DNA of 64,000 nucleotides from Thuidium tamariscinum. Its lineage: Eukaryota; Streptophyta; Bryopsida; Hypnales; Thuidiaceae. Of the stretch, positions 19,335-59,518 are shown in pieces. Under the pieces are notes generated by a model. It saw only the letters and a program-made list of their open reading frames with translations, was not told where the DNA came from and searched no databases. Every line of letters starts with the position of its first letter. Position 1 is the stretch's first letter. Both the position numbers and the translations under genes were made by a program. The DNA is taken from NCBI GenBank assembly GCA_947034885.2, contig OZ019759.1, positions 13,642,501 to 13,706,500 of the forward strand. Reading direction: 5' to 3'.

Positions 19335-19552
19335 ACAACGACGCTAGCGTTCGAGCGTGGAGCGGTGAGCCTGTGAGTTGCGAGCGGGAAACTTGTGAGC
19401 GGTGAGCATGAAGTAGCCTTTTTTTTAGAAATTTGGACTAGAATTTTTTTTCAATCAATTTTTTTTCCAAAAATCAGCAAAAAATTACTATTTATAGTAA
19501 ATTTTGCTACCTATGACCGTGTCTCCTATAACCGTGGATTTTCATGAAATCT
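19335..19552 (-). repeat. Dispersed GCTCACA-rich terminal repeat, copy 2 (inverted)
   Basis: Read on the minus strand it holds 'atccacggttatagg', 'cggtcataggt', GCTCACCGCTCACAAG, CAACTCACAGGCTCAC and CGCTAGC, in the same order as at 4394-4512. It lies about 320 bp past the stop of the minus-strand transposase gene. Confidence 0.55.
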
Positions 19553-19870
19553 CATATTTTTGGACCATTGATAATGTCATCTATACATTTGAGTTTTAGG
19601 ATTTAGAATCCGGAAGGGAGATAAAAAACAGGCCAAACACTTCAAATACAAAAGTAAGTGTGCCTTGTTCTAGGGGTTAGGATTTTTTTGGAGTTAATAA
19701 AATGAAAATAGGAAACTTTAAAAACTGGATAGAAAAAGAAAGTTTTCATATACATGTATTGCAAAGAAAGTCAATGTTCATGATTGGACTCCATCACTTC
19801 TTTATTTCATTTGCAGCGCATGGAGAAGAATACAACATGAATGTACTACACTCCAAATAACTAATCATAT

Positions 19871-22800
19871 CTACTTTGAAATAATGATGATTCCTGCTCG
19901 AACTAGGAGTACCTTCAACTCATTAAAGCTATAACTAGGTGCATGAATGAATTTGTCATCATGGATATCCATCTTGCAAAAGTACCTATACAAATAATAC
20001 AAGTGCTTACAATTCACGTATTGTGCTCGGCCTCCCACAACAGATACTATCATATTGACAAAGTCAGGGCATGTGCATGTAGGGAATGTACCCATAGTAA
20101 CTCGATATACGTTTTTGTTGGACTCCACTCCAGTCTGCAGCACCACTATTGCACCAAGTCCTGGAAGAGGTACAAGGGTCACTCCTAGAATTTCCCCTCT
20201 AATATTTGAAGCACTTTCCCATTTGTTGCGTTGCTCTACGGTTGGAGGATTTGCAAGTCTTTTGATAGTTCGGTTGTTCCTCACTGTAGGGTGCACATCT
20301 GCATTTGGTGGACATGGTTGGGTGAAGAAGATAGGCTCAAAAATCTTAGACATGGCAAAAAATTCACGTGGTGACAATGTAGGCAATTCTTGAAGCTGGA
20401 AGCCGGCATGTTGTAATAGTAAGGTTTCTTCACGATTCAAATTGGTCCCCGTTAGAATAGGCCAAATTTCAGGCAACTCTAGCCTATCAATGGCCCACTT
20501 CCTCTTTGTACCTTTCACGCATCGTTCAATGTCATCCCAACAAAACCAAAAGTCCACGACCACCGGGCGCTTAGTTCCATATTCTTCTTTCCTACCGCGA
20601 TAAGTAGGAGCAGGGGTCCTTTTCCACCCTTGGCAATCCTTGAGGTACACTTGATGTTTGATGTCCATTGTTGAGCCCAGCATCTTGCATTTGATTTGTG
20701 GCTGATCCTTGCAATGTGCCACTTGGATGTGTCACAATCGGTTTCAAATGCTACTGTCACATAATTGAAGGTATTAACTTCATTGCAATTCCCAATGCCT
20801 TCCATTGAATTTTCTGCAACCTTTGTAGACCTAGTTCTGACCCGGGGTTGGGAAAAGTTGACTTTGTCTGGTCTATGTGAATCTCCAGCATCACCGATAG
20901 GTACATCAAGCCTCCTCTTTGTGCTCCCAAAAAATTCTTTTCCTTCTAGATGAAGTACTCGAGTTCCCACACCATATGCTTTTGGCAATGTATTCAATGC
21001 CTCAACAATTTTTTTTGGACACCCACTGCGCCTAGCCGCCTTCAACCTCAATTCTCCCTTTGATGGTCTTGACCCACACGTATATCCTCTAAGGTATGCT
21101 CGGTAGTTTGTCATTTGCATCCAAGCCCGAATACTGTCATCACATGTGGCATCGAATAAATTGTTTCCTTTTTTCCCCGACATTTGTAGCCACTTGTTAT
21201 GGATCGTTTCCGATAGATTACAAAAAGGCATGTCTGTCATCTCTTCTAAAGTAAGACCCTACAATTCCAACCACAAGTAGACATGAATCAAAATACAATT
21301 CACTATTATTATACAAATTATATCTGAAATTTCTCTCTATACTTCTAAGAATTTCAGTATGGTTTAGGGCTTAGGGAAGTACAATCACAAAGAAGAAACA
21401 AATAGTATTTATTTATATAAATTACAGAATCCAAATATCTCACTAGAGAAACAAAATTGGAAACATAGTACCGTCAACTAGTACTTCAACCTAAGCCCAA
21501 TTTTGACCCTTATAACATTATATTTTTCTATAATTAACTAGGTTAGGGAATCCGTCGGATCCGACGGATTTGATATATAATATCATTTTATAGTACAGTG
21601 AAAATACTAAATGATTGAAACTTCAAGCAATTAGCACTTCCATGAATGCCTTATTGTAAGATTTATAAAAAGTACACTTATAGCCGTTGCAAGCAACAAG
21701 TACCTCATTGATTCCCTACACTACTTCCTTTAATAAATCTTCCAATTCTCTACTATAAATTATCTTTCAAAAAAATTTAAAATTATTTGTATTCAAATTT
21801 TTAATTACAAAGACATTAAAAGTAAAAAAAAATCATCTCTTCTACATAATTGAAGTGAACAATTGTCTAATTAAATAAGAATACAAAATATAATTTGAAA
21901 ACCAAAATAAGATCCACATACCATTGTCATGAAGCCTCCCCACTGTAAATAACGAAAATGCCAAAATGCCAACCAATGCTTGAAGTGATGAAGTGAGTCT
22001 TCTGTTATAGCTCCAGATGATAACCACCATGACCGAATTGCAAGATAGTGCACCTCCGCTTCATCCAAAGTCTTGGATTCTTTGTACTGCTTACATAGTG
22101 CAATGTGTTGATGTTGTAATCCTTGCTTGATGTGTTTCTGGGTGTGCTTTTGAAGAGAATTACTCCAATGCAGTAGGCATGTTCTCTCACAATTCTTCAT
22201 AATGTCATTTGCGGAGCCACTGCCATACACAATGCGAACTGCATTCCAATTGGCCATTGCGCTATCTGCCATAAATCCTTTAAAATTTGGCTTAGTCACT
22301 CCGTATTTCTCCATTATAGCATTCAGTGACCTCTAGAACTGTACTTGAATCTCTGTATCTTCTGATTGCATATCGCACACTGCAATGGTCATGACCTTCT
22401 TGTACTGAGAGTCGTACACGTGGCATGCCATGGTGGTCCAGTCCTTCACGCGCTTCACGTGGTCGAACATCATCCACGCATTCTGTAGATCACCTTCAGG
22501 TTGCATACGCCTTACCAAGTCCACTCCACTTCCAGGCCCTTCAGTGAGCATTTTGAATACATAAACCTTCTCTTTGCCTTAGCCTGGGAAGACACTGTCG
22601 TGTATGAACTCGAACTTCGATTCCTTCTTCATAGTCATAATGTTGTCAATGACCCCTCCTTGGTTGTTTGAGCGGAATGAGGAGATGATATTCCGTATGC
22701 TAGGACTACTTAGAAACTGGAAGCGATCCATGACCTCTTCCATTTCCTCTCCCTTCAATATCTTCTTTTTTCCTTCTCCGTGGTGAAAAAGGTGGTTTGT

Positions 22801-24081
22801 AAGGAAGTCTTTGCTAGCGGATAAAGCTATGGCAGAGTTTGTAGCTGAAGGAGTTTTGGCAACTTGTTCTGCTATTAGTTCAGTAATTTCATTTGTAGAA
22901 TCTCTATACATGCCTTTTGCTACTGGGTGAGTGTGGTTTCCTAGGTGAATAGTAGCCCTAGTCATATTTGGGTTATGACTGTAGCAGTAGTAAATTCTAG
23001 CATCACAAGTGCTGAGGCATGTAGGTATTGTTTTGCAAACTTTACAAACTAGTTTGCAATCTTTTGGTGGAACGACTCCTACTGTAAAAGGAAAAATTGT
23101 AGAACCTATCCATTTTGTTTCATTTTTCCTAGAAGTCCTAGACAAATATTCGCAGCTAGGGTTTTCACAAATAAGATGGCCAACATAGAATGACTTACGA
23201 AACTTCAAATTGTCCGAGTTGTGGATGTTTGTTGTCACTAGCTTACACCACCCATGTCCGTCGTACCGCTTGTCCATTCCCTCCAAGTTCTTAGCTGCAG
23301 ATGAAGAAGAAGAGGCCCGACATGGCGGTAGTTCAAAGATGGCATCTCCGTCGTAAGTAGGTGGTAGGAACTCCACTTGGTGGTGCTTCACAATGTTCAT
23401 ATCTAATGTTGAAAGTTCGTTTCTTGAACGGTGAAGACCAGAAAGTCTCTTCAAGCACTTCATAATACTGGTTATACTAGCCACACTTGGATGACAAACT
23501 TGTTGTGAGAAGGTACGTTGCTCAGAAGTACTAGTGGAAATGTTCTGTATAGAGTACGTAAGACTGGTGTCATTGGATTCTTTCTTGACGAAGGAAGGTT
23601 CCATGTCAAGAATCAAGGAAGGAAACTCGCCTTCTGACTCACTAGATAGTTCTACAATAGTCCCCAACAACTCTACCATTGCTTCAGTAGGCAATTCATT
23701 TCGTGTCAATGTAGGGAAGCATTCTATAGGAGCGGTAGGATTAGCACTCTCAGGTCCAAAAGATTTGTTCACTGTAGAATTATCAGACTGGCGACTTGCT
23801 ATCTCAGTGGACGAAGCTAACATGGACAAAGGGAGACCGTAAGCCCTATAGTTCCCAAGACCTAGATACCAACAGTGCCCTTCATCAGAGAGACATTTTG
23901 AAAGTGGGATTGACTGAAGTAATTCACCAGACTCAGAATGGCGCTCTTCTTCAACATAGATAGATGACTCTACAAACTTGAATCAAACATGAAGCAAGTG
24001 GCTAAATACAGTAGCACGACCTCCTAGGTCTAAAGGAAAGACTAACGGAACCTGATGACCATCTACACGAATGCTTGCCAT
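19871..24081 (-). pseudogene. MULE-like transposase with SWIM zinc finger, decayed
   Basis: Runs from ATG at 24081 in two large exons, about 24081-21922 and 21258-19871, with a GT donor at 21921 and an AG acceptor at 21259. From the N terminus: a Cys/His-rich region with C-x4-C and C-x2-C pairs and GNHTHP (about 23170-22930); a MULE core with MTIAVCD, then ADSAMANWNAV, then a CERTCLLHW block (about 22400-22140); and a C-terminal SWIM finger, CTCPDF...CKHLYYLYR (about 20080-19970). Such proteins cut and paste Mutator-like elements; domesticated relatives (FAR1, MUSTANG types) act as regulators. The frame stays open from 24081 to 21922 except for three stops: TGA after HLLHV (about 23980), TAA at 22581-22579 and TAG at 22335-22333. 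A frameshift lies near 20725. I saw no terminal inverted repeats of this element. Confidence 0.8.
21546..21570. repeat. Short palindrome with GGATCC centre
   Basis: ATCCGTCGGATCCGACGGAT, perfect, inside the intron of the transposase gene. Same core as the larger palindromes elsewhere. Confidence 0.8.
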
Positions 24082-24545
24082 GTCGCTCACAATCGACTAT
24101 AAGATAGAAATGTAGGTAAAAATGGCTTGAGAGAGTGAAAAAAAAGACATATGGGTTTATATAGGGTTTTCAAGGGTACAGTGATTATTTGTAAATGATG
24201 GAAGCAAGGACAATATGGGTTTAGGGTTTAAGGGTAGAGGAGCTATAAAGTTTAACAATAATTTCAGATGTAAACATTACATTAGAATTAGTGAATACAA
24301 GGTTTGTACTACAATCATTACTTAGTGTAATAAAATGTAGCACCTGAAATTTTCCATGTACTATTTAGGTTTTCAATTCTAGAATGATCTTATCTGTATT
24401 GAAGTCTAGGGGACTTAGATATTTTGGCGTTGGAATTCTGGCGATTATTGAAATAATTACTATGCTTGCAACTCGTTTCAAACAGCTCCAAGTCTCCAAC
24501 AGATCTCATTCAGTACATGAATCTGTAATTCTACTGACATTGACG
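24082..24545. other. 5' flank of the transposase gene, no gene seen
   Basis: AT-rich, with 'tttagggttt' at 24221-24231. No clear TATA box or TSS can be fixed. Confidence 0.4.
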
Positions 24546-24771
24546 GCGTTCTCACATCAAGTTGCCTCGGGCAATGCGAATTTCGAATTTCAAGAATTGC
24601 GGGCGTTGTCCCGTCAAGTTGCCTCGAGCAGTGCACATTACGAATATCAAGAATTGCTGGCGCTATCCTCTCAAGTTGCCTCGAGCGGTGCACATTACGA
24701 ATATCAAGAATGCCAGCGCTATCTCATCAAGTTGCCTTGGGAAGTGCAATTTTCAAATTTTGAGAATTGCC
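24546..24771 (+). repeat. 57-bp minisatellite, four units
   Basis: Unit starts are at 24546, 24603, 24660 and 24716, so spacings are 57, 57 and 56 bp; each has 'tcaagttgcct'. Because 57 is a multiple of three, one frame reads a 19-residue repeat of the type QVASSxAHYEYQE, which shifts frame in the last unit. The lost base and the openness of several frames suggest a minisatellite rather than a real protein. Confidence 0.75.
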
Positions 24772-25056
24772 GACGCCGGAATTGATATGTCATATGACAT
24801 GCGTGAAGTTCAAAGGCGGCGGAACGTAGAGAAGTATACAAGGGAGTCTTGCAACATAGGAATTCATTTCGTTGTCACCTTTGGACTTTGGAGTGGAGCT
24901 CTCATTTCTGTTTAGAGCAGGAGTACCTACTTGTTCTATATGCACATGATTTTAGAACACTCAAGTGCACTTTCTATCCTTTCAGAGCGAAGCAAGAGTC
25001 ATAGTAAACACTGCTCTTTCTTCTATTCTTCTAGAAAAGCTTTGAGAAGAGCCAAG

Positions 25057-25251
25057 ATGACTCGTGCGAAGAAGACCCTGTCAAAGCGAGGACGTGGTCA
25101 GTCGAGTGAGTCCTAGAGGTCTCATTCTATCGAGGGAGAGGGACGCGACTATTTGACAAGTACTGAGGTCCAAAATACTGATCCTATGCAAGAGTACCTA
25201 GAGGAAGTGCACGCCGAGGACGAGGGCCCGAAGTCACGAGATACGTCTAAT
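25057..25251 (+). pseudogene. First-exon-like segment with an in-frame TAG
   Basis: ATG begins MTRAKKTLSKRGRG. The frame runs 65 codons to a GTAAGT donor at 25252, with one TAG at 25114-25116. The second half is acidic (EEVHAEDEG). It resembles in design the two first exons at 26850 and 27208, which start MARTTRSR and MVRTMRSR. It is probably a relic of the same gene family. Confidence 0.45.
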
Positions 25252-26849
25252 GTAAGTCTATCGCGCGCATCCATTTAGCCTTTTCCATTCCTAGTTGTAA
25301 GCATTGTAAACATTGAATCAATTCAATGAATAGCAGGTCTTAGGGTGCCAACATAATTGTCATTAATTATTTGGTCAATTACAGAAATTGAAGGGGATGC
25401 AATTGTACCAAGTAGAAAAAGAGGAGCCATTCTTGTGCATGATGTTTGAATGCCAACTATGAGAGCATTGTCAGGACATTGTTTAGAGTAGAAATGACAG
25501 AGAGGATTGAGTGGGTTTTTGTAATCCATATGAACATTGAGTTCTAATTAAGGCTTAGGGTCAGAGGAGAAGTTCAGACATTCTATTGTATAAATAAAAG
25601 AAATTCCCTGAGTACTATTTCAACAAAGCTTAGACATTTTCTTATATTCATTGGAACCTACAGTGGAAATTGAGAGATTTAAATATCAGTATAGGGATTT
25701 GGGTATTGGGTCTTACACCGGACTTTGCAACCATGCAATAGAGGCTCAAAAATAGACATGAGAATTCTAGAGAAGTCACTTCTCTCTTATGATGGAGCTT
25801 CATGTGATTTGTTTTTTATTCTTCAATGTATGGTTGGAAAACAATACACCCTAAATTCCATACTAAGTGTCTAGGTGTCCACAAATTTACTTCAAAATAA
25901 AAATAGGTAAAAGAACTACTATGTTGAAAGTAAATAAAAATCTGAAATAATGATAAAATCAAGCATTCACCAGGTGGTGGTAAGATACACTTCAAGAAGT
26001 GAGCTGTCAATGACTTTATAAATAGAGCAATGCCATTTTTTGGATTTACTCTACATATTTTTAAAAATATGCATAGATGCTTTCCCAAGTGCCTACGATC
26101 AAAAAAAGGAATTATAGTTGAATTTGTGTTTGAGAATTTATAAGTAATTCAATAATGATTAAAAAAATATGAACCAACTTCTGTTAGACTCTACATTCAT
26201 TTTTCTTTGATAGAAAAATATTTAAAAAATATTTTAAGCACACTAAATACACCCTAAAGCCGGATCAGTCCTAAGGTGATCGGTTTGTAAGCATCCCGAA
26301 TTCATCCAAAATCAGATTTTGGATTTTGGATCGACGAGGCAAAGTCTTGTACCCAAAATCAAGCATGCCTATGATCAAGAATAGCCTGGATCATGAATAT
26401 TCCTCGAGGAATGTTGGGAGAATTTCCTCCATACTTTCTCAAATTCTGAAGAGGCAGGGAGTCCTCACCTACCAAATTGAATGCTCTCAGAAAATTCCAA
26501 AAGTATCCGGGAATAACACAGCGGCACCCAATTGAGTGCCTTCACTGGAATCTTGAAAGTCAATGATTTCCAAAAGTTTTGTTCAGTCCCTAAGTCGGAT
26601 CCTGCGCGCCGCCTCCATTCTAGCGCGTCCCTGTTCCATCCCTCACTTTCACCACCGAAAACCAGCAATCAATAAGGACTTTGGAAGCTCCTTCCAGATG
26701 ACGATAGTGTTGGAATGGTGGCGGCTAAGGCTTTCGCTGATTTGTGCTCCGAGCTTCCTTTTCAAACTGGTTTTTGAATGCAAAATCTCCTGCTGTGACA
26801 CTCGCCTTTCACTCAGTCCTCGCCGAGGTCTCATTCACTCTTGTTGCAG
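25252..26849. other. Spacer, no gene seen
   Basis: AT-rich up to about 26260, then more GC-rich. It holds a small palindrome around 26306-26326 and a half copy of the GTCGGATCC core at about 26584. Confidence 0.45.
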
Positions 26850-29800
26850 ATGGCGAGGACTACCAGGAGCCGGGCGCGAGTTGGAGAGAATCCTGATGAG
26901 CAGGTGGCGCAGCATGAGGTAAGACGGGCTCACCGATTCAGTTTTTCCTTGTGCACAGCTGGGAGAGAGCACAGACTTGGTGTGCGGTCTTGCAATGTGT
27001 TGCATTCTTGTAATTCGCGGTAGTGATGAGAGAGATGTGAGCCTTCAACTAAGATCTGGAGATCTGAATCCAAGAGACTATCAAGGCAAGAGTGCGCGCC
27101 AAGCCTCCGAATCCTCACTTGAGTTCCTTGTCACAAGTCTTGAGTTGCGAACGACCAAAACTCAAATTCCATTCAGTCATTCTCATGCCCGTGGGACCGT
27201 GTTGCAAATGGTGAGGACGATGCGCAGCCGACAGCAAGTTGCTGACAGTGTGGACAATGAAGAGGCGCACTATGAGGTAGCATTCTCTCAAACCCAAATT
27301 TTGTCTTATTTTTTGATGAGTTCGAGGAAGCAGGTACAGATTCATTGCCCATCTTGTGTGGCGCGAGTGCGTGAGAGAAATGGGGCACGTAGTCTTTGAG
27401 ATGAGATGGCGGTTTTAGAATAATCGCATGCCACGCTTGCGCTGTGCGTCGCAGGGTGCATCTCAGGGGGGGGGGTTTGGAACTCTACGGAGTGCGTAGC
27501 TCACGCGCACAAAGGAACTCCCTACGCGTCCTGTGCATGTCTCGGGCGCTGCACGTGGCACTCCCCTAAGCCCGCGCCACGGACGCGCCAGGTACGTTCC
27601 GTGCCCGCACAATGGACGTGCTAGGTATGTGGCAAGACGTGCCAGGTACGCTCCGTGCTCGCGTCACAGACATGCCGCGCACACGCCAGGTACGCGCCGT
27701 AGACGCGTCACGGACGCGCCAGGAGTGGGTGCCCGGGCCAGAGTGGGTGCGAGAGTGGGCGCCAGAGTAGGTGCCCGCGCCACGGTCGCGCCGAGCACGC
27801 GCCACGGACACACTGTGCCTGCGCCGTGGACGCACCAAGGATGTACCGGGAAACAAAAGTCAAGTTTTTGAGTTAGAAGCGCCGCGTCTGCGCCGTGCCT
27901 GCGCCACGGACACGCCGCGGATGCACTAAGGTCGCGTCGTGCCTGCGCCGTAGGCGCACCAGGGATGCACCGGGAAACAAAAGTCAAGTTTTCCTTCAGT
28001 ACAGACGTACGCGTAGTATTCATTAGTACTCCAAGGTCAATGTAGAATTTTTGGTGAATCCTTAAGGCGTCAGAATTCGAGTTAGAAGCGCTGCGGACGC
28101 GCCACGGACACGCCGCGGACGCGCCGTGCACGCGCTAAGGTCGCGCCACGGTTGTGCCAACCACGCGCCACAGACGCGCCGAGCCTAGACTGTGGACGCA
28201 CCAGGGATGCACCAGGAAAAAAAAGTGAAGTTCTCGTCCAGTACACGTAGTATTCATAAGCACTCTAGGGTCAATGCAGTCGAGGGTTAATTTTTGGTGA
28301 CTCCTTGAAGCTTCAGAATTCAAGTTAGAATGCGTGTATAGAAAAAAACAGTGGGCTCCGTGGGTACCACGGAGCCCACTGCAAAACCAAGTCGGATCCG
28401 ACTTGGTTTTGCGGTGAGCTCCGTGGTACCCACGGAGTTCACTGATTTTTTGAAATCGTCCTTAGTTTCCAAGAACCAAGGAGCAGGTCAGTCCGAATAT
28501 GACAAATTCTTTGAGAATCCTTAGAAATGGAAACCGAAATCGGACTCGCGCATCTTGTAACTGAGGCTTCCGTGTGATCCTTGCCGTGTATCTTCAAGTG
28601 TAGATATCTTTTGCAGTGGTTTTCAAGAGAGCTAAATTATAGCTTCATTGTAGGCAGCTCAAAAAAAAGAGTGACGTCTATGGGTAGCACGGGGCTCACC
28701 GCAAAACCAAGTCAGATCCGACTTGGTTTTTCAGTGAGCCTCGTGGTACCCGCGGAGGTCACTCTTTTTTTTGTGTCCACATTATTGTTTGAGATCGTAC
28801 GAGCGGGTCCGAGATAAAAATCCCCATAAACTTGAATCTGACATTAGTGGCGTCGAGAAATTTGTTGTTTGCCTCCCGTTGCAAATGTTGCCACGATCGG
28901 GTTTCTGAGTTCTCTCGAGTACTGATATCAGCTTATTCGATAATCTTGCAATGTTGAATCAAACCGTGACTGTAGGTACTTGTAGAAAAGGAGTGTGAGC
29001 CTTGGGTACTACGAGGCACATCGGAAAACCAAGTCGGATCCGACTTGGTTTTACGGTGTGCCTCGTGGTACCGGCGGCACCTACTCTTTTTTTTTCATTT
29101 TGAAAATTTATTGAGGTCAGTAGCTCCCGGTTGGTTCTTTTCTTGAGTTTGTGTTTTCTTCCTGTTCGAAAGAATCTTGGTTGGCACTGCAACTAACTCA
29201 CAGTGCTGCCCAAGTTTATTCTTTTAGTTCACCTTCAGGACCCTGATATCGTCACAGACGTTGACTAGATGAAGCCCTTGGTGTCTTGCTGTGGGGCTCT
29301 CAGTATTTGAATTTGTATCTCTCCGTAGCCGAAGAAGCCAGATTTGTTTCATTTTTAGCCCCCAACATATGAGATTTCACTTTAAGACTATGATCATGTT
29401 TGGCCTTCATTAGAATTTGTAAATATTTCGAGAAAAATGGGTTATTCTGGGGTACTACGAGGTGATTTTGAAAACCAAGTCGGATCCGACTGGGTTTTCA
29501 GAGTCACCTCGTAGTACCCAAGAATTCATATCTTTTTTTAACTTTTTTATTTGATTATGTTTTGATACTTACATAAATTTCTCTTTGTTCAGACTTCTGT
29601 TGCAGATAAAAGTGTTGGTAAGGAAAGTGAAGAATTGAAGCAACAGGTACACTTACAATCATAGTGGTGAATTATCTTGAAGTAATGTCTTGATTTGCTA
29701 ATGATTTTCATAAAGTGACCCCAAAGACATGATTTAAATGATAGGAAATATTTAATTTGAATTTAATTTGAAACTAGAAATTTAGCTAAATACATTGTTT

Positions 29801-30305
29801 ATATTTTATTGAATCATTTTTTTGCAAATGAATGCTAAGTTTAATCTTTTGTGTCCAGGGTGGCCAAGGACGGGGCAAGCGTCAGAAGGTTTTATCTTTA
29901 GAGGAAGAGAGTCCTGTGAAGCAGACTGTCCCTGATATGGACGTTGGTGGACCATCCAAGCCCCAGATGTGGCCACAGCTAGGGGTGTCCATTTCACTTG
30001 ACCAAAGTGATGCAAACCAAAATTTGGTGAGTTTTGATGACGTCATGGATGCTACGGAATATGCCGTTGACGCATTTGAAACAAGTGTGCTTAGTGGGAC
30101 TAGGGGCAATGGCCCATGGTTCTCATCTTTCAACTCTGAGGAAGAGTATCCCTCTGATTATGAGCTCTCCAACTCTAGTAGTGTAGAGTTTTTCGATTTG
30201 TACACAGGGGAGAGTGTGGTGAATATGGACTTGTTTCAGTCCGATGAAATCATCATCCTCAGCTCTGATGAGGATGAGGATGAGGATGTTCAAATCATAG
30301 ACTAG
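26850..30305 (+). CDS. Small acidic-protein gene, three exons
   Basis: Exons 26850-26918, 29593-29646 and 29859-30305, all phase 0 with GT/AG borders, give an open frame of about 190 codons. The start is basic (MARTTRSRARVG). The middle exon is 18 codons. The last exon has GQGRGKRQK, then a Ser/Asp/Glu-rich C terminus ending in SSDEDEDEDVQIID. I recognise no domain; basic plus acidic tails could suit a chromatin or nuclear binding protein, which is inference. The large second gap contains an alternative first exon, a GC-rich minisatellite and four palindromes. It ends 218 bp before gene 2 on the same strand; the exon at 30524 also follows an acceptor-like TAG, so joint or alternative transcripts with gene 2 are possible. 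Confidence 0.55.
27208..27276 (+). other. Duplicate first exon of the acidic-protein gene
   Basis: Starts MVRTMRSRQQ and ends in HYE before a GT at 27277. It is 69 bp long and in phase 0, exactly like 26850-26918 (MARTTRSRAR...QHE). Either could splice to 29593. Confidence 0.55.
27500..28330 (+). repeat. GC-rich, CpG-rich degenerate minisatellite
   Basis: Short units of the type 'gcgccacggacgcgcc' repeat irregularly. A longer motif, 'gatgcacc.ggaaacaaaagtcaag', recurs near 27840, 27966 and 28206. Open frames here on both strands are an effect of the repeat. This is by far the most CpG-rich stretch of the left half. Confidence 0.75.
28350..28443. repeat. Three-part palindrome 1
   Basis: The centre (28381-28412) is a perfect 32-bp palindrome around GGATCC at 28395-28400. 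Each flank (about 28351-28379 and 28414-28442) is its own palindrome around GGTACC, and the flanks also pair with each other. Confidence 0.9.
28661..28772. repeat. Three-part palindrome 2
   Basis: Outer arms AAAAAAAAGAGTGAC and GTCACTCTTTTTTTT pair. The centre is a near-perfect palindrome around AGATCC; a GGTAGC/GGTACC pair lies in the flanks. Confidence 0.85.
28985..29092. repeat. Three-part palindrome 3
   Basis: Same plan as the two copies to its left, with a centre around GGATCC near 29037-29042 and A-rich/T-rich outer ends. Confidence 0.85.
29444..29526. repeat. Palindrome 4
   Basis: Arms 'ggtactacgaggtga' and 'tcacctcgtagtacc' pair perfectly around a GTCGGATCCGAC centre. Slightly shorter than its neighbours. 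Confidence 0.85.
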
Positions 30306-30523
30306 GTGGAGTTTTGTTCTCAAAAACACTATATACCAGGCCAGGCTTTATATTTATTCAAGCTACTTCATTTTTGTAGATGTATTTGACAATCCAATTG
30401 CAAGTACTATTTTCCACTTGAAGTAAACTATTTTTCTTGTTGTTCCAACACTTTCATTGCAATTCATATTGTTTTTGTTTTCTATGAACATTCCATTTAT
30501 TGAACTTGGAATTGTTCTTCTAG

Positions 30524-33500
30524 ATGGACATTTCCCCAGCCAAAACCATGGAAGTGGAAACAATATTCGAAATGCCTTCCTCTCAAAACCAGAGACAACC
30601 AAAGATTGAGCAAGGAGAAGGAGAAGGAGAAGAAGGAGAAGACATGGACATTGTCATTCAAGACCGTCAGGAGGAGAAGGTGATGTCAGAGGAAGAACTC
30701 CGGCATATTCAAAAAGGTGATGTTGTGAAGCTTTTGGGACAACTTCGGATGAAGCCTGAGGAGGTATTTCGAATGCACATACCATTGTGCAGGCTTGTGG
30801 CAATGCCAATGGTCAGACCCGCATTGGCATCTGATATCCTGCAGCTAGAGCAAGAGTTTGCAGGTGGAGGGTACCGAGATGGTGCTGCGGTATTCTATGT
30901 GTCAGCTACAAACGAAGATGGGAACACTGAAGAGTTCACCCAACAGGAGATGGATAGTTGGGACCCCATTTGGAAGGAGAAGAATGAAGTTTTCAAACAG
31001 AAGTTCGAGTCGAAGCCAAAGCTTCAATTCTTGAAGAACTTGAAGATCTTCATTTGCGATGGGAACCACAAACGAATTGCTTGGATGAATTACATCTCTA
31101 AGCACTCGGAGGAGCACTGCAATGTCAATTCTATCATGTTAGACACGAAAGGTCGGAATGAACTTGTCATGCAAGTCATGCATGACGTAAACAAGTAAGT
31201 TCTTTCTTTCATATTGTTTCTATTTTTCAAAGAAATATTCAATTTGAATGTTGTACTTTCTTGAAGGTAGTTTAGATCTTTGGCTTATATTGCATTGAAT
31301 GGTTTTCAGGTCTGTAGAAGACTCCCACGTGAAGACGAACTTGGTACACACCTTGTACCAAATTCAGAAGTACGGAATGCTACCCATAGCAAAGTTTGCA
31401 GCTTTACTTAGGCCTATAGAGAAGAAGAGGTGCCTTGAGCACAAGGTCACTAAAAAATGGTATTCAATTCAACCCGAGGTCTTCACCTCTTTCATCTTCC
31501 GGATAAGGTCTTTCAACTTGTTTTTGATAAATATATTTTTATTTAAAAAAATCATCAATGTCCATATTGACTTCACATCTATCTGGGTTTCTTGTGCAGC
31601 AAGAAATTTCACAAGCTGCAGATGCAACTGTAAGAAGGTACATGGAGGCCACACAAGAGATTGGAAGTGTACCACTACAGGCAGCCGAAGCAATGAGGTT
31701 GGGAGCAAGGGAATGAACAAAGGCGGCCATGGTGAAGATGTTCAAATTGCTAGCGGTGGCCAACCCAGCGAACGGAGAGGACTTCCTTAAAGAGGTACAA
31801 TTCAGTAATTAGTCTCCAACTACACTTAAATTGTTCAAAAGACAGTTCAAATCCATATTGAAAAACTAACTGAAATCTTCTTGTAGGTGGAAAAGCATTG
31901 GGGCAATTACGAAGTGCCTGAAATGACTTTGGAGAAGCTCCAGTTGGTTGCCACCTGCAAGATGACTGCAAAGCACAAGACAAAGATACTTCAATGGTGG
32001 AACTCTTCTACTTTTTCACGCGAATCAAGGAAGTTGCCACCAAAACCTGTCTCCGAACTCTTACTTCCTCAATTTCTGGTGAAGTGCACTTGGTACGCTG
32101 GGGTAAGTGTTCAATATCTTTTCAAGAGTGTTTTTGATATTAGGGGAATTCCAGACCCTCTATGATGCCTTTAAAATGGCATCAGTTGGGGTCCTTCATT
32201 GAATTTGAAGGTGTACTTAGCAAAGACACACTCTACCTTTTTCCTGTAATTTTCCTGTATTTTGACACTACAATTTTTCTGAAGGTAAATGATTTTAATT
32301 AGATAACTAGACTTTAGGTACTACTTGTCACTTGAATTATAGTACCATAATCGGTTTTTCTTGCTAGCGACAAACAATAAACAATTAAGTAGTAATGGTT
32401 TATGAGTTTCTCAACTTATTAGTGAGAATGTATTTTCTTAAATATGATAGGTACTTTATATTCTAGAAGTTTGCACAATCTAATTCCTTTCATTGAATAA
32501 TAAAACACTTGGTAGTTGTTTTCATTAAAATATTTGGTAATACAACTGAACTTTTTGACTATATCCCATTTTTTAGATAGAAGATGCTGCAGTGGAGTTC
32601 TTCGACAAAATTGTAAAGGAAGACAACCTTTCCATCAACTACAACATAAAACCAGAACCAGAGCGGCTACCAGAGTACATAGAAGGATGGAGGCAAAAGA
32701 TTTGGGAACATGGCTTCATGAATTACTTCAAGGGCCAGAAGTACTTCAAGAGGGGCCAAACTTTTTCATCTCACGAAGGTTCTAACGCTGTAGTGCGCAG
32801 AGTCCTTTATCGGTATGTCATTTTCTTTACTACTTGGAATTTTGTGGCATCATTGTATACTTTGTAATTATAGAAATTCTATAGCATCATCTACTTCATT
32901 ATAAATCTTGAATTCGTATTGTCTTAGCTACTTTTCCACCCTTCAAAGGATTGCAATTTACAACTTCCATGATATATTTTGCTCTTACTCTTTCATTTTG
33001 AGATTGAACAGTGTTCCATATAACTCATTATGATTGAATTACAGGTACTTCAAGTTAGAGCTTGAAGCAAAGGGGGCCATTGCAAAACTGGACATCCCTC
33101 AATTCCTTCCACGCTTCCTCGACCGCAACTCGCCTTCATGCATGTTCAGCCCACATCAATTGCGCACCTACACTACTGCTCATTTCTTTGGCGCGGGTTG
33201 GTACTTGGACTGCACACTGGAGTTCACTCATAATTCGGAGGTTCAGCTCAAGGCATCATTGGAGGGCAAGGGGATAGTAGATTTGGAGGCTGTTGACGAG
33301 TTCATTGGCATGGATGATGATGCCAGGAGGAGGGCCATCAACAAGAGGGATGCACTGGACCGAAAGAAAGAAGTGAAGAATCAACTCATCGTGGAGGCCA
33401 AAGAGAAAAAGCAAGCGGAGAAATCAGCAAAGAAGGCAGAGAAAGAGGCGGAGAAGGCGGAGAAAGAAGTGGAGAAGGAGAAGGAAGAGAAGACTAAGGC

Positions 33501-35582
33501 CAAGGGAAAGAAGAAAGTGGAAAAGAAAGGGCAAGTCTTAGCTTCCTCCACTGTGGATCAAACACAAGGCGGAGTACCAAGGAAAGTCACCATCTCACAG
33601 CTCACTGAAGATGTCATTTCACGAGTCACACAAGCCATGGTCCTCTTCAACGATGATGTGCCAAAGACTGAGGATTTAATCCTTAATATTTGCATTGAGG
33701 ACATCGCCATGGATATGGGGGACAAAAGACAGGGTGTCTACGACGAGGTCTTGAAGTACTTGGTTAAGGTGATCTCTTCGAACATCTTTGCTAAAATTTA
33801 TTTTACTTGTTGTCAATGATATGAATGCTATGTACCAAAGTTGCTATAATAAAACATTGAAGACAAATTTCTATATGGTCTACAATTACATTTTGTATTT
33901 AAGAATTTTGTATTTGAAAAAATTAGTAAGACAAGAAGGCAGAATTTACAATTCCGTCAGATCCGACGGAATCACATAAACCTTTATTTTGTTCTGTATT
34001 TCCCTACTCAACATTACTATATTCATATGGTTTTGTTTTCTCTAGAAATTGTTGAAAATATTGAGAAATGTAATTTCTTTTTCAGCTCAGACTTTTATTA
34101 AAATGACCCTAAAATTCCTAATGTTGTACTAAATATTATGAATCTACTTTAAAAGATAGAAAAGTATGCAATACTAATATATTGAAATTCTATTGAAATA
34201 TGCTTTTGCAGATGGCAGTGGGCAAAACTCGCATGTTTGAAGGTGTCGCAAATGCAAGGGCTGGTGTTGATGTCATCTTTATTGACTGTCCAAAGAACTT
34301 GCCTGTGCTAGGCATTTCTCTTACGTCGAAGGAGGTGCCAAATTGGAATGCGGATTTAGAAGCTAATGCTTTGCAATCCGCATGCACCTTTGGAGTAGAG
34401 CATCTGCACGATGATGGATGCATCATTGTGTTTCACTCCTTCAGCATTGCATCCAGGGAAGATCTAGCAGGAGTTTGTGAAGCATTTGACTTCAAGAAGA
34501 AGAAGGACTGGCTAGGCATGAACTGCATGCATCTCACCTCGCCAATGGACACCACAAAGACGGTAATTTCAGTACAGATGCTTAAGTTTTTGTCACCTAT
34601 TTTCTTTTAAAATTCTATTCATTGATCTCTAATGTTCTTGTGTCATATATGTTGCAGACACATAAGTTTGGAGTCACTCTCCTTGTCAAGGACCTCAAAG
34701 CAAAAGGCGAATCCAAATTTTCTTTCAAGCATACTGAGATGATGAAGAAGGCTGGGGTGGATGTCGAGAATGAAGACATGCTGATGAATTACATGCATGC
34801 AGATGACATCTCCATGAATGGGAAGAAGCCATGGAGAGGCCCACGTGAAAAAGATCCAAGGTTCTTCACCCTCCTCCTTGAAGCCACAAGCAATGAAGGC
34901 GATGTCATTGTGGACTGCACGACATCCACAGGTTTGTCTTCAATTTTAATATTTCACACTTCTATGTCATTGTAACAATTTTGTCACCTCTCTAACACAT
35001 TTTTTTTACATGAATGCCCTAGGTGCTTGCATTTTGGCTTGTAGAGGAACTGGACGCAACATTCTAGCTTTTGAGGGGGACAAAGATGTTTTCAATGCCA
35101 TTTTGAAGCCCATGAAGAAGTCATCACCCTCAATGGTAGTGGCTCCAACCCCCGAGACAATAATGGACTTGACAATGGATGTGCAAGACGCGCCTATTGT
35201 GCCTCGCAAGTTTGTTCGCAAGGGAAAATCTAGTAAGTAAGTGGAAACTTCTTTTATTCTTTATTATTTTTTTTCATATCACATTTGCAAAGACTAATAT
35301 AATGTCTTCAATTTTTGCAGAGGTTGTGGATTGATCTTGAGAGAGGTCATGGAACAAAATCAAAGGCTTGTAGTTAGTCCAGAGAAGCCTTTCAAGCTAC
35401 CACTGTATGTTGAGCAGATGGCAAGTGCCTTTGCAAATTTTGGTTGTTCCAAATCAAAACAACGCAAAGACACTTACGCCCTCAATGTCTTATAGTTTAT
35501 AGATGCTTCTGCATCTGAGGGACGGGAGTCTTCAGAGTTGTCTACAGGGTCAGATTCAGTGACTGAGTCCACAGCCACTTAG
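30524..35582 (+). pseudogene. ParB-like/DNA-methyltransferase-like gene 2, full length with three lesions
   Basis: Ten exons: 30524-31194, 31310-31502, 31600-31794, 31887-32102, 32577-32812, 33045-33768, 34212-34562, 34658-34931, 35023-35236 and 35321-35582. They total 3336 bp, or 1111 codons. Five exons have exactly the length of their gene 1 partners, and the other differences are multiples of three. Residues about 85-225 resemble a ParB N-terminal domain, with RPALASDILQLEQEF and DGNHKRIAW at 179-187. A Lys/Glu-rich region spans about 600-665. The methyltransferase-like part has FIDCPKNLP near 768 in place of DPPY, and GDVIVDCTTSTG near 942-953 for FxGxG. Bacterial and phage proteins often join ParB and N6_N4_Mtase domains, so an ancient transfer is likely (inference). 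Lesions: donor AT instead of GT at 31503, TGA at 31714-31716, and TAG at 35493-35495 where gene 1 has CAA (Gln). The decay looks recent. Confidence 0.75.
33953..33974. repeat. Short palindrome with GATCC centre in gene 2 intron
   Basis: ATTCCGTCAGATCCGACGGAAT, with one mismatch, inside the intron 33769-34211. A half-decayed relative, ATTCCGTCGGATCC, lies at about 35814-35827 in the 3' flank of gene 2. Confidence 0.75.
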
Positions 35583-36234
35583 ATTCTTGAGATTGACTAA
35601 TCTCTTGAATCTTACTATTGTGTATTATTTGGATTTTATTTGGATTGGATTTGTGTGTTTTATGGCTACTTCTGGAAGTCTCGAATTTCTCTTTCTATTT
35701 ATTTGATTTTTGTTTTGAAAACATCTAAGGCAATGGCTCTTGCTAGTTCTCCCAAAACCTACACCAAAAATAAATAAATAAATAAATTTTGAGGCAAGAA
35801 GGCAACACGTACAATTCCGTCGGATCCAACAAACCCTTACATATTGACCATCCAATTCTTTCTCTTCATTATACATCTCAAAATCAATCTTCTTTCAACA
35901 ACACCTAGATTGACTTATTTAGTGAATGAGTTGCATCAAGTTAGAGTATTTCCAATTGATGCCTTTTGTGATTTCAAGGTTTGGGTATTTATGAGATATT
36001 CTTTTCTGTTTTCATTTTGCCTTCACATTCCTTAATTTATCTCTATATAAAAAAGATTTAATATTCTAAATTACAGCTAATCGACAATATAAACCTAAGT
36101 GCTTTGATTCTCACAATTAGATTTTATATCCCTACTCTTGTATATACAATGTCCATGATCATAGGTGTATGCAAAGAGAAAATGAAGAAGAAAACAAAAA
36201 GTGACTTCTGTAGTCACATCTTTGAAATAGACAT
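35583..36234. other. 3' flank of gene 2, no gene seen
   Basis: AT-rich; includes a 'tttatggcta' block also found after gene 1, in keeping with a duplication that covered gene and flank. Confidence 0.5.
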
Positions 36235-36410
36235 TATATTTTCTTCGTCGCCTAAACGTTGAAAGTCCACGATCATAGGTACTAAACTCTAATTTTTGTT
36301 ACCCTAAAATCCACGATCATAGGTGGTCAACTCAAATTTTTTTCAAAATAAATTTCCCGCTCACAAGCTCACAAGCTCCTGTTCCCCCGCTCGCTTGCTA
36401 GCAACCCTGT
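36235..36410 (+). repeat. Dispersed GCTCACA-rich terminal repeat, copy 3
   Basis: Two 'ccacgatcataggt' blocks, then CCGCTCACAAGCTCACAAGC and GCTAGCAACCCTG. Same order as 4394-4512, and about 0.65 kb past the stop of gene 2. Confidence 0.6.
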
Positions 36411-39553: not shown

Positions 39554-41629
39554 CTATTTTCTTGGCCACTTCCTTGGAGTCTCTCCCAATTTGGCGGCGC
39601 CCTTTCTTACTGGTTGTTTACGGGCAGAACCGGAAGTCTTTGCACCTTTGCGCTTCTTCGCCTTGGAGGATCGTGCCTTCAGTTGGGCTTTTACCTTTCT
39701 GGTCATGGCCAACTTAGCATCCGGATCGGAATCCGATTCTAAGTCTTTATCTCCTGATCCAGAGTTGGACTCCTCAACCTCCTCCTTCGACTCTTCTTCT
39801 TTGTCTATGTCGACCGAAATTGGCTTCTTCTTCTTTTGGGAGTCTGTCATCTTACTCTTGATCTGGACTAGGGTGGGGGCACTAGAAGAAAACTGCGTTA
39901 GTAATCAACAAAACGCGTGGGCTGAAATGCGTTGAATTCCACGTTTCTAACACAAAAAACTGCGTTGGAATGCGTTGGAACGCAGTTTTTTGCACTAGAA
40001 ACGTGGAACTCAACGCATTTCAGCCCATGCGTTTTGCTGATTACTAACGCAGTTTTCTTCTAGTGGGGAAACTGTTGGAGTTTTTCTTTGTGGAGTTCCT
40101 ACACTCCCTTCACATGCTTGTGGCTGACTCCGAATCAATGATCCTAGTGTAGACTCATGCTCAGTTCCGGATTCAAGTACAATGCTTGCCTTGGTAGGTG
40201 TGGTGATTACCACATCTTCCGAAGGTTTTCCGGTTTTCTCTTTTACCATTGGTGTTGACTGTTTCACCTTTGGTAGTGCTGGCTTAGAGGAAGTAGCTTC
40301 TTTTGCTTTCTTTGGTTACGATTTAGGTTCCAGTTGAAAGGGTGGACTAACCTCTCCTATGACTTCCCTCATCTGAACCAATAACTCTTCCATCTTCAAG
40401 TTGAAGGAAACTAGGACGTTAATGACTTTATCTCCTAGCTTTCCTATCCCTTTCAAGACCTTCTCATTAAAGAGTTTGGACTTGTTCAAAACCTTTGCCG
40501 GAGTGTTGATGAATTCCTTAATCCAATCAAGGATTTCTAGTGACTGAGTTGAGATTTTCCGGTTACGCTCACTCTCTTGCTTTTGCTCACTCAGCTCCTT
40601 TTTAAGGGAGAGCAACTCATCTGTCAACTCGTGATATCTAGCCTTTCCGGCCTTCCCGTCAGCGTCTTGTATCAAGTTCCAGATTTACTCTACACACTTA
40701 GTCCCAGGAACATCTCCCAACAGCTTACACACATTTTTCAAGGTATTTCTCTCTCTCTCATACTCCTCTCGGACTTTAGTGAGTTCCCCTATTATTGACC
40801 CTAAAGGGTCGTTGTTCCAGACTGAGTCCTTCTCTTTTTCCTTCTCTATCTTGACCTTTGTCTTTCCTCTCTTTTCCAGTTCCGATTTCCCTGATGAACC
40901 AGAAATCTTAGTCTTTCCCTCAACTTCTTCCATCTCATCATTTGAGTTTGACTTCATCCCATAGGCTAACTTAACCTCTTGAACCATATACTCTTGCCTC
41001 TCTTGTGCCCTCATACAATCTTGGGAATGATACAAGTGGAAGAAGAAAGGAGAAATGTTGGAAGGCTTAGTGTTACCCACTCCTTTGCACAACTTAGTGA
41101 CATAATCTCTCAAGACTAACCCCCAGTCTACTTTCCGGTCTTCGAACAGTGCTCTAAATATTGTGTTCCCTAATGTAATGGTCATCTAGGTACCCCTATC
41201 CAGACTAAAAATTAAAACCAGAAACTCCAACACTCTTCTCTCCCATGCATCCTTGCACTCATTCATGGTATAACCATCCTTTGCATGAGGTGCGTTCCGG
41301 AACTTACCCACCACAAACTTATCCGTCCGGGATGCAAGTCCTTCCCCTTCTCTGGAAAAGCCGTAAACCTCCCTCTAGACACCAGCAGTCTATTTGTCCG
41401 AAAACACCCTTAGAGTCTTCCTCCACTCGTTCGGCTATTGGTGCAGTACCTCCTGCACCATCACCTCGTCCTTGAAGTTCCAGGGTCTCTCGATCAATCC
41501 GGCGTAGCCCATTTGGCTAAGATCCTCCACTAGATCTCCCCTCTCTTCTGCATCTTTTGGAATGACCGGAACAATGTTTCTAAGAGACACCTTGGTGGGG
41601 ATCTCCTCCTCAGCCTCACTTCCAGACAT
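39554..41629 (-). pseudogene. Element protein, copy 1, decayed
   Basis: Homologous throughout to the ORFs at 44245-46136 and 57839-59518. ATG at 41629. Stops replace residues present in copy 2: Q to TAG (41437-41435), W to TAG twice (about 41395-41370), R to TAG (about 41190), and Q to TAA (about 40685). The C-terminal third, with TPQRKTPTVSP and DSQKKKKP, is split by the MITE at 39880-40065. Confidence 0.75.
39880..40065. mobile_element. CACTA-type MITE
   Basis: 186 bp with long inverted repeats: CACTAGAAGAAAACTGCG at the left and its complement ending CTAGTG at the right. A 3-bp target duplication, ggg, lies at 39877-39879 and 40066-40068. The repeats run inward for more than 60 bp and share CACTAGAAGAAAA with the CACTA end at 47833, so that family probably mobilised it. 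Inserted in coding sequence of element copy 1. Confidence 0.92.
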
Positions 41630-57487: not shown

Positions 57488-57838
57488 GCCTGACATTTTC
57501 AGTTGGCCCATTTGCTCTCAAGCGCCTCGTTGTGTGTTTTTCAATCCTCAGCGTTTTTCGCCTTTTTTTGTGAGTTTGTCTTTTTGCACGTGTTTGGTGG
57601 CGCGACTTCCTATGGTGCGGCTGTCAGTGTTTGCGGCTGGTGTTAGTCAGAGCGGGCAGTTGTCAGCAGCGCGGGTTTCAGACTGTGCGCTGAAGCGCTG
57701 GTGTGCGCGAGAGGACTGTGTGTGTTCTGTGCAGGTGGTTATTACGGGTGGATTGCCTTTGTGTTTGTATTGTGAGTGTGTGTGAGGAACGGGACGTGCG
57801 GCTAGGAGGGAAGTGAGGTAGTTTTCCGGATAGTTGCC

Positions 57839-59518
57839 ATGCCGCAGCTACGCCAGAAGAGGAACGAGTCCACCACACCCCTGCCCCCAGGGATACGATT
57901 GAAGAAAGTAGTTCCGCTCATCCCTTCTACAGAGCCGGAGAGAGGTAATCTGATGGCCGACCTAACCACCATGGGTTGCCTAGGGTTAGCAGAGATACCT
58001 TGGGGGTTCAAGGAGGAGAAGATGGTGAAGGAACTGATGGGGAAGGTGTCGAATCAGTTCGACAACACTGAGCGGGGTTTGTCTCACACATGGACGGAAG
58101 AGCACTGGAGGACCGTGTACGGATTCAAGCACCAGGGGCACGGACCGGCCGGGAGGAAGGTAGACTTCCTCCAAAACAAGTTTAGTGGCACCCCTCACCC
58201 GAAGGACGGATACCGGATCATGGACTGCAACGAAGACAGGCATAGACGCCTGTTGAAGTTTCTGCTTCCGGTCCTTCATCCGGAAAAACCAACCCGGATC
58301 ACGATCGGCCTGGCCAACACCATTTTCGGTGCTCTGATCGGAGACCGGAAAGTAGACTGGGGCCGGATCATCCATGAGCTGGTCGGCCGGTTACTGAGGA
58401 ACCTCACAGGGAGCAGGGCAACCCCGATCTCTCCCTACCTCTTCCACCTCTATCACAGCTTACAGCTCCTCACGGATACGGAGGAAAAGACTTGGCGCGC
58501 TCAGGAGATAGTCCTGAAGTACGGAGAGTCGGAAACGGATGACGAGGAGACCCCCTCCGATTCCGACTCGGAAGAGGAGGACAAAGATGAGGAACCGGAA
58601 GCTCCTCCCGTGAAGCGGTATAAATCAACACCGCCGAACACGAGAGGATCACCTCCGGTCCGACGGAATCCAGCCACGGAGGACAGACCGGGACCGTCAG
58701 AACCGGGGCCATCCGAACCGGCACCAAAGGAGAAGGGCCCCAAGGATCCGTTCGACAAATTGACGAAGATCTTGTGTGACATCCGGGCAGATTGGGAGAT
58801 CAAACGGATTACCCTGGAATCTATCGCGGCTATGGTTAATGGCCAACCGGATAGAGATCTTCCGGGTGTAGTGGGAAATTGCATTGCCTCCCCCATGGAT
58901 CTCGCCAAGTTGGAGGCGGAAAACCGGAAACTTCAGGATGAAGTTGACGGTTTGAAGGCGGAACTCCTTGTCCTCAGGGACAACGAGACCGCTACCAAGG
59001 AAATGGCAGCGGAGACCGTCAAAGTGGCGGAGCACGTGAAGGCGACGTTCGGGGAACCCGGATCGGCAGTCATCAAGGCTCGCCTGTTTGACGAGGAGGT
59101 GCACAAGGAGAAGAAACTATCCGGAAGCCGGATAGCTCGGATCCTTACCAACTTCTCCGATCGGGTGGAGGCAACTCTGGTGCAAGTTCGGGAGGCGGCC
59201 GACCGGATGGAAGATTGCAGCCGGAGGCTGACGGAAATTCCGGTCAGACTCTCCGATCTGTCTCTACCGGATCTTTCTGAAGGGTTGCCTCAAAGGCCAG
59301 GGAAGGACAGGACGCCGCAATCCAAGAAGTCGGGGCGAGCGTCAACGGGTAACCGGGAGGCGGCAATTCAGTTGTCGGAGTCTCCTGTGAGTCCGGATAC
59401 TGGAGCACCGGTTGCAGTAGACGGAGAACGGAATCGAAACCTCACTGAGGTTTTCGAACAGATCGGCAGGGCAGAAAGCCCAACTATAGGTTCTAGGGTA
59501 GCAGGGCCGGATACGTAG
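57839..59518 (+). CDS. Element protein, copy 4, complete
   Basis: 559 codons with no lesion, ATG to TAG. Residues about 20-235 hold the conserved block: VVPLIPSTEPERGNLMADL, EIPWGFKEEKMVKEL, HPKDGYRIMD, ITIGLANTIFGALIGDRKVDWG and ISPYLFHLYHS. An acidic linker (DDEETPSDSDSEEEDKDEE) and a Pro-rich region follow, then a long charged helical part likely to form a coiled coil (about 305-460). I see no DDE, RNase H, reverse transcriptase or zinc-finger motif. The conserved block resembles plant transposon proteins of unknown function; DNA binding plus oligomerisation is a guess. The codons are far richer in G and C than those of the interrupted host gene, so the insertion looks recent. Confidence 0.8.
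   Translation: MPQLRQKRNESTTPLPPGIRLKKVVPLIPSTEPERGNLMADLTTMGCLGLAEIPWGFKEEKMVKELMGKVSNQFDNTERGLSHTWTEEHWRTVYGFKHQGHGPAGRKVDFLQNKFSGTPHPKDGYRIMDCNEDRHRRLLKFLLPVLHPEKPTRITIGLANTIFGALIGDRKVDWGRIIHELVGRLLRNLTGSRATPISPYLFHLYHSLQLLTDTEEKTWRAQEIVLKYGESETDDEETPSDSDSEEEDKDEEPEAPPVKRYKSTPPNTRGSPPVRRNPATEDRPGPSEPGPSEPAPKEKGPKDPFDKLTKILCDIRADWEIKRITLESIAAMVNGQPDRDLPGVVGNCIASPMDLAKLEAENRKLQDEVDGLKAELLVLRDNETATKEMAAETVKVAEHVKATFGEPGSAVIKARLFDEEVHKEKKLSGSRIARILTNFSDRVEATLVQVREAADRMEDCSRRLTEIPVRLSDLSLPDLSEGLPQRPGKDRTPQSKKSGRASTGNREAAIQLSESPVSPDTGAPVAVDGERNRNLTEVFEQIGRAESPTIGSRVAGPDT

Follow-up and report, generated by a model that had tools for sequence, protein, structure and literature searches.

A multi-copy mobile element of the moss Thuidium tamariscinum with long palindromes and an accessory gene for a putative degenerate ParB-methyltransferase protein

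Gene 2 is an accessory gene of a multi-copy mobile element

We analysed 64,000 nucleotides of contig OZ019759.1 of the moss Thuidium tamariscinum (the whole stretch is called the window below), in which an initial annotation had described a gene joining a ParB-like domain to a degenerate DNA methyltransferase domain. This gene, gene 2 (30524-35582), is a plus-strand accessory gene of a multi-copy mobile element, element 2, organised in the window as follows.

19336-36409, no strand: mobile element 2, 17,074 bp, which holds gene 2; ends common to three other copies, flanks unrelated
19336-19400, no strand: left terminal inverted repeat, imperfect, starting CAACGACGCTAGCG
36345-36409, no strand: right terminal inverted repeat, imperfect, ending GCTAGCAACCCTG
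30524-31194, plus: gene 2 exon 1, ParB-like part with DGNHKRIAW; a candidate splice acceptor abuts the ATG
31310-31502, plus: exon 2; GT donor lost in the window copy
31600-31794, plus: exon 3; in-frame TGA at 31714-31716 in the window copy
31887-32102, plus: exon 4
32577-32812, plus: exon 5
33045-33768, plus: exon 6, Lys/Glu-rich stretch
34212-34562, plus: exon 7, putative methyltransferase motif IV position; DCPK here, DCPENLPV the commonest form
34658-34931, plus: exon 8
35023-35236, plus: exon 9; putative motif I position straddles the exon 8/9 junction
35321-35582, plus: exon 10; early TAG at 35493-35495 in the window copy

The window's own genome (363 Mb in 19 contigs, 11 of them large) was searched for further copies. 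The best 150 of 617 candidates were scored for exon 7, the window's own included and all with E < 1e-42, as were the best 150 of 597 for exon 1 and the best 40 of 168 for the right end of the element; the count of three members in 64 kb given by the initial annotation was thus too low. Three copies (A, B and C) were taken with their flanks, and in each of them the alignment to the window stops at 19336 and 36409. The element measures 16.0-17.3 kb across the four copies compared, and its ends pair as imperfect inverted repeats (CAACGACGCTAGCG.. / CAGGGTTGCTAGC..). At these ends, copy C has direct repeats of 10 bp that match exactly and copy B has repeats matching at 9 of 10 positions, which agrees with the target duplication of 8-11 bp given for MULE transposons in the available part of the source literature; no direct repeats were found at the ends of the window copy or of copy A. 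Because the copies lie scattered over the genome and the four set side by side have the same ends, gene 2 is a transposon accessory gene, and its earlier description as a member of a eukaryotic gene family is rejected.

The ten exons meet at GT/AG-type junctions (one donor lost) and sum to 3,336 nt, equivalent to 1,111 codons and a stop. All the landmarks previously read along this chain were found, from DGNHKRIAW in exon 1 and the Lys/Glu-rich stretch in exon 6 to DCPK in exon 7 and DCTTSTG across exons 8 and 9, where the join reads DCTTSTGA. The gene had also been taken to be in phase throughout; the chain stands, but its intactness does not, as the window copy is decayed at the three points marked above (the in-frame TGA in exon 3, the donor lost after exon 2 and the early TAG in exon 10). 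Exon 6 is open. Decay varies between the other copies: stops interrupt exons 1 and 5 of copy A and exon 1 of copy C, a more distant copy (L071, ~60% identical) has a single stop early in exon 10, and copy B has none in the exons compared. An AG immediately upstream of the exon 1 ATG is a candidate acceptor, so that the gene may have another exon at its 5' end, although no such exon was found.

The copies are unevenly spread over the genome. Contig C11, which holds the window and at 17.5 Mb is the smallest of the large contigs, carries 47 of the best 150 exon-7 copies. This corresponds to 2.69 copies per Mb, as compared with 0.15-0.52 on the ten other large contigs (~5-18 times as dense). C11 may represent a sex chromosome or a chromosome with little recombination.

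On the opposite strand of element 2 lies a second gene, which we call transposase-like.

21922-24084, minus: transposase-like gene exon 1, limits set by homology to copy B; two in-frame stops in the window copy
19871-21258, minus: transposase-like gene exon 2, with a C-terminal SWIM-like CxC..CxH; frame-broken in the window copy

Exon 1 of this gene is open over 741 amino acids (aa) in copies B and C, which differ here at pN 0.045 and pS 0.136 (the proportions of non-synonymous and synonymous differences), and in exon 2 the open frame spans 462 aa (copy B) and 431 aa (copy C). The N-terminal half has a Cys/His-rich zinc-finger-like stretch followed by D, ADSxxANWNA, CLLHW and NLSE, and the C-terminus reads CTCPDF..CKH. 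From motifs read by eye (DDE, CxxH, NxxE), we take the product to be a DDE transposase of MULE-like type that carries a SWIM finger, and we infer by motif only that it is a transposase. Pfam returned SWIM at E 0.15, under the cut-off, and gave no match for the joined catalytic region, the MULE transposase profile included; neither NCBIfam nor PDB gave a match.

The two genes travel together. When the best 150 of 872 candidates for the transposase-like exon 2 stretch were set against the best 150 exon-7 copies, 111 of the 150 methyltransferase exons had a transposase-like exon on the opposite strand, upstream and within 40 kb, at a median distance of 12,961 bp. The other three arrangements of strand and side were seen 3, 3 and 0 times, and over 200 trials random placement averaged 2.9 and never exceeded 7. 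Since both lists hold only the best 150 (of 617 and of 872), the 39 unlinked methyltransferase exons need not be partnerless.

The methyltransferase-like and ParB-like parts of the accessory protein

The joined exons 7-9 matched seven PHROG families, at 6.2e-6 to 0.055, all of them annotated as methyltransferase or DNA methyltransferase. With three members the best PHROG value was 2.6e-7, for phrog_67, which two of the three matched, and phrog_6952 was matched by all three. In the PDB profile search the top match was the adenine methyltransferase DpnA (5hfj and 5hek, which we take to be Helicobacter structures) at E 1.6e-5 over the whole, and CcrM was matched at 0.052; the eight chains at E <=1 comprise five DNA methyltransferases and three unrelated proteins. 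The alignment to DpnA is collinear over motif IV and then motif I, the order expected of beta-class methyltransferases, and its halves are not significant alone (5 and 0.053). Further matches were weaker: Pfam N6_N4_Mtase (PF01555) at E 0.0046, below the cut-off, NCBIfam CcrM at E 0.0019, far below its cut-off, and, with tblastn against plasmids, a best E of 0.01, where 34 of the 39 records matched are annotated DNA methyltransferases. A pattern-limited scan of viral contigs, confirmed at tblastn E <=1e-3, found no relative of exons 7-9. Taken together, a degenerate beta-class N6/N4 methyltransferase domain in the gene 2 protein is supported by these profile matches.

In such enzymes the catalytic motif IV has the form DPPY and the S-adenosylmethionine (SAM)-binding motif I the form FxGxG. 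Neither is found here. Three aligned members have DC[PQ][EK]N instead of DPPYN at motif IV and D-C-T-[AT]-S-T-G in place of D-P-F-x-G-S-G at motif I, with CTASTG as the prevailing form; the DPPYN and the FMGSG loop of DpnA correspond here to a DCPEN-like string and TASTG. Thirty exon-7 copies, one of whose rows is on the wrong strand, gave FIDCPENLPV (23 copies), FIDCPENLPM (1), FIDCPKNLPV (2), IDCPKNLPVP (1, a row printed one residue off), FVDCLENLPV (1) and FIDYPENLPV (1). DCPE or DCPK is thus present in 27 of the 30 (24 DCPE and 3 DCPK), and the remaining forms, DCLE and DYPE, do not restore DPPY. DCPK, the form read earlier in gene 2, is a minority variant.

The replaced motifs sit in a region under purifying selection. 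Pooled pN/pS for exon 7 is 0.124 over 24 of the 30 copies, five loci having been left out for length and one for a stop. Six pairs of subfamilies were compared over exons 7-8, and the four without saturation have a dN/dS of 0.11-0.21. These values carry the caveat that a young copy inherits the constraint that acted on the copy it came from, and that the pairs pooled depend on one another. The replacement of the motifs looks like constraint and not drift.

Turning to the N-terminal part, the ParB/sulfiredoxin motif has the form DGxHR, and the fold is expected to run strand, helix, strand, DGNHR, strand, N, an order that can be read by eye in exon 1. Twelve copies of exon 1, with 60-81% identity to the first of them, all have the D, N and H of the DGNHR motif, and for G and for the first R the count is 11 each; the median pN/pS of exon 1 is 0.264 (range 0.10-0.36, 45 pairs of ten copies). 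No ParB match to exon 1 was found in the Pfam, PHROG and NCBIfam libraries, and the PDB profile search with the ParB-like domain gave weak, irrelevant matches only. Against two ParB subgroups, the hhalign scores of exon 1 were 22.9, with the alignment on the motif, and 14.6, with the alignment in another place; the subgroups reach 90.3 against each other. PF02195 found no match in a six-frame search of the window's genome and one weak match in seven phage and plasmid records. Pattern-limited scans of viral contigs and prokaryote genomes, confirmed at tblastn E <=1e-3, found no relatives of exon 1. A ParB-like domain is plausible because of the motif, its place in the chain and a published analogue, and we regard it as likely but unproven. 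Of the fusion put forward by the initial annotation, the methyltransferase half thus holds up in profile searches, even though its Pfam match stays below the cut-off, whereas the ParB half, with no significant profile match in Pfam or elsewhere, stands at the level of the motif.

Palindromes between the divergent genes, and neighbouring genes

The noncoding stretch between the divergent genes of element 2 holds four long palindromes without spacers.

28337-28456, no strand: long palindrome 1
28658-28775, no strand: long palindrome 2 (28682-28751 at a stricter setting)
28997-29080, no strand: long palindrome 3
29441-29528, no strand: long palindrome 4

Copies A, B and C have three each in the same stretch. 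The palindromes are 70-126 bp long, a length that varies with the setting, their arms having been measured to 60 bp at most, and they are mostly centred on GGATCC. When 13 of them were aligned gap-free, 92.7% of cells were paired and both sides had changed in 20 of the 44 pairs; the covariation score was 0.410, as against 0.156 for shuffled and at most 0.094 for slid partners. Since the aligned palindromes come from related copies and several are nearly identical, these figures count sequences, not events.

Palindromes occupy the same place in two other subfamilies. The equivalent stretch of element 1, an element whose right end falls in the window, lies upstream of the window (L103) and holds three, with 60-bp arms 95, 95 and 85% complementary and with two centres GGATCC and one GGATTC, and that of the L071 subfamily (L104) holds one, with 60-bp arms 88% complementary and the centre GGATCC. 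In BLAST comparisons at E <=1e-3, L104 had no match to window positions 24001-30600, L103 had a single 26-bp match to them, away from the palindromes, and L103 and L104 shared one 20-bp match at a palindrome centre. The flanking sequence barely aligns, and therefore the position and symmetry of the palindromes are kept while their sequence diverges.

Half-sites of the element 2 palindromes are also enriched in the element. Inside the four copies the 9-bp half-site GTCGGATCC or GGATCCGAC was counted 34 times in 66.8 kb, and outside them a single time in 72.2 kb. Of 30 further loci, five were left out because the element end was not found; the other 25 have 25 half-sites in 41.5 kb inside and 0 in 37.5 kb outside. 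In such counts a full palindromic site counts twice.

Other repeats lie nearby, at 24540-24780, where they are offset by ~57 bp close to the start of the transposase-like gene, and at 27570-28215, where GC-rich repeats with 11-22-bp spacing run ahead of the palindromes. Outside both elements the window has one unrelated long palindrome at ~39910-40035 (60-bp arms, 88% complementary, 10-bp spacer).

The remaining features are the following.

29859-30305, plus: final exon of a second gene on this strand, acidic (..NLVSFDDVMDA..LSSDEDED); element 1 and L071 have counterparts
105-3450, plus: gene 1, of which exons 2-9 fall in the window; exon 1, further upstream, is interrupted by a stop
1376-1459, no strand: palindrome in gene 1 intron 5
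4500-4512, no strand: right end of element 1, with the same terminal 13 bp

The acidic exon had no Pfam match. Gene 1 is 45-69% identical to gene 2 over seven exons, exon 3 being matched only via an out-of-frame translation, and is a true paralogue with DCQE at the same place, as had been proposed. The third supposed member, gene 3 (61186-61590, minus strand), could not be upheld, as it was matched by none of seven profiles made from exons of genes 1 and 2. The minus-strand frames 62676-63572 and 61810-62109 gave profile matches at chance level (E 4.1 and 5.4), and the two gene 3 region frames tested had no Pfam match. This region (61186-63572, minus strand) has open pieces that include FYVINGQHSVVASKWM and, later, a stretch whose last residues are FSTFAGGKLT. 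An NGQHS string is here followed by an FAGGK string, in the same order as the ParB/DGQHR-like and methyltransferase-like strings, and gene 3 may belong to a remote second family of the same design or be a remote analogue. Finally, a 570-aa open frame at 57806-59515 (plus strand) has a C-terminal stretch, LPQRPGKDRTPQSKKSGRAST.., that recurs inside the frame of another copy (L070), so this frame is probably part of another mobile element.

Possible role of the accessory protein and comparison with known systems

We propose, with a probability of about 0.45, that the accessory protein no longer methylates and instead binds DNA, probably at the palindromes, aiding its own element. A DNA-binding accessory factor is the best explanation because a conserved protein of methyltransferase fold that lacks the catalytic motifs rides on a transposon, and the palindromes are the obvious candidate sites because of their enrichment in the element and their location between the two divergent genes. 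The protein would combine an N-terminal ParB-like domain, recognised at motif level, with a middle part containing the charged stretch and a degenerate beta-class methyltransferase domain, in which a kept fold with catalytic motif IV and SAM motif I replaced would serve DNA binding rather than methylation. Once bound to the palindromes, it might keep host silencing off the divergent promoter, or else assemble a transposase complex, in a manner resembling VANC, the accessory protein of the VANDAL transposons of Arabidopsis; target sites and binding domain would then diverge together between subfamilies. By analogy with that system we infer a sequence-specific DNA binder of the anti-silencing type. 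The role in reading or opposing methylation suggested at the outset may in this way acquire a mobile-element rationale. A more specific version is tentative and, on balance, doubtful: a bacterial-type ParB-methyltransferase would have turned catalytically dead and, as a ParB-like reader, would load on fast-evolving, GGATCC-centred palindromes between divergent promoters and block silencing, giving a plant-like genome an anti-silencing system resembling parS and ParB.

Several observations weigh against this proposal. When exon 1 was compared by hhalign with ten bacterial and phage ParB-type proteins, the score at the motif was 21.1, a value reached by five of 200 column-shuffled controls. The partner gene is recognised as a transposase by no profile in Pfam, NCBIfam or PDB. 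The exact 9-bp half-sites of element 2 are absent from the element 1 stretch and occur once in that of the L071 subfamily, so the core shared with element 1 is limited to a central GGATCC or GGATTC. The palindromes could instead serve as transposase sites or as a source of hairpin RNA, and their symmetry could be kept by arm-to-arm conversion. Lastly, the Asp and Asn of motif IV and the last Gly of motif I are still there, and residual or altered enzyme activity is therefore possible.

Among the alternatives, the protein may be a structural or transposition co-factor that acts at the palindromes or at the element ends, helping synapsis or excision with no role in silencing. That 111 of 150 copies are linked with a transposase-like gene speaks for such a function, as does the report, in the available part of its source, that several MULEs carry additional open reading frames; we nevertheless consider it unlikely, given that the palindromes are central and noncoding, ~7-9 kb from either element end. 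It is improbable, to a somewhat greater degree, that the protein has kept methyltransferase activity, with an active site of unusual form, and marks its own element with N4-methylcytosine (4mC) or N6-methyladenine (6mA). The fold, the three residues just named and purifying selection on the region would fit an enzyme, and the Ectocarpus protein discussed below is predicted to be active by its authors (PMC12477816, from the available part). The motifs themselves argue the other way, with DC[PQ][EK] for DPPY and a motif I without Phe and first Gly in the three aligned members, and with DCPE or DCPK in 27 of the 30 exon-7 copies and DPPY in none of the other three (DCLE, DYPE and the wrong-strand row). 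Least credible is that the palindromes are passengers of the element with no connection to the protein, either nested mini-elements or sources of hairpins: their symmetry, their size of ~70-126 bp and their varying number would suit this, but they keep the same place in three subfamilies whose surroundings hardly align, vary by compensating changes, and have a 9-bp half-site found once in ~110 kb outside the compared elements.

Transposon-borne ParB-methyltransferases are little described in the literature searched. The loss of enzyme motifs from a large family whose protein is conserved argues that selection keeps binding and not methylation. The palindrome clusters offer concrete sequences for binding tests, which would allow one to ask whether a second sequence-specific kind of anti-silencing exists beside VANC.

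Three published systems bear on this element, and each is compared here from the available part of its report. The bacterial protein Bce_0392 is a ParB-methylase in which a ParB domain is fused to an adenine methylase (PMC5512222); by description only, the moss protein resembles it in this fusion and differs from it in that the ParB part of Bce_0392 is reported to be a nicking enzyme. Sola1-1_Ec32 of Ectocarpus is a 21.5-kb giant DNA transposon with a ParB-methyltransferase accessory gene, similar proteins occur in green and red algae, and its authors raise the possibility that the accessory protein marks its own DNA (PMC12477816). Such transposon-borne genes are thus already known as a kind. 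As in the moss element, the accessory gene of Sola1-1_Ec32 lies on the strand opposite to the transposase and joins a ParB-like part to an N4C/N6A methyltransferase in a protein of 1,104 aa, compared with 1,111 codons here. Again likened by description only, Sola1-1_Ec32 is a Sola1 element whose methyltransferase is predicted to be active, whereas motifs IV and I are replaced in the moss protein; set beside it, the moss element has long palindromes and yielded 617 candidates in the exon-7 search. No description of a transposon-borne ParB-methyltransferase accessory gene in a bryophyte or other land plant was found among the top-ranked literature matches. What is new here is a catalytically degenerate, high-copy version, together with palindrome clusters that stay palindromic while their sequence diverges. 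VANC, finally, is encoded by a transposon, binds repeated, fast-diverging motifs in the noncoding DNA of its own element and induces the loss of silent chromatin marks (PMC10398659). Its targets are tandem repeats with short motifs, and the available part of that source does not call it a ParB protein or a methyltransferase. Like the moss protein, it is an accessory protein of a plant DNA transposon with fast-diverging repeated motifs in its own noncoding region, and by this analogy VANC is the closest parallel that we found for the proposed mechanism.

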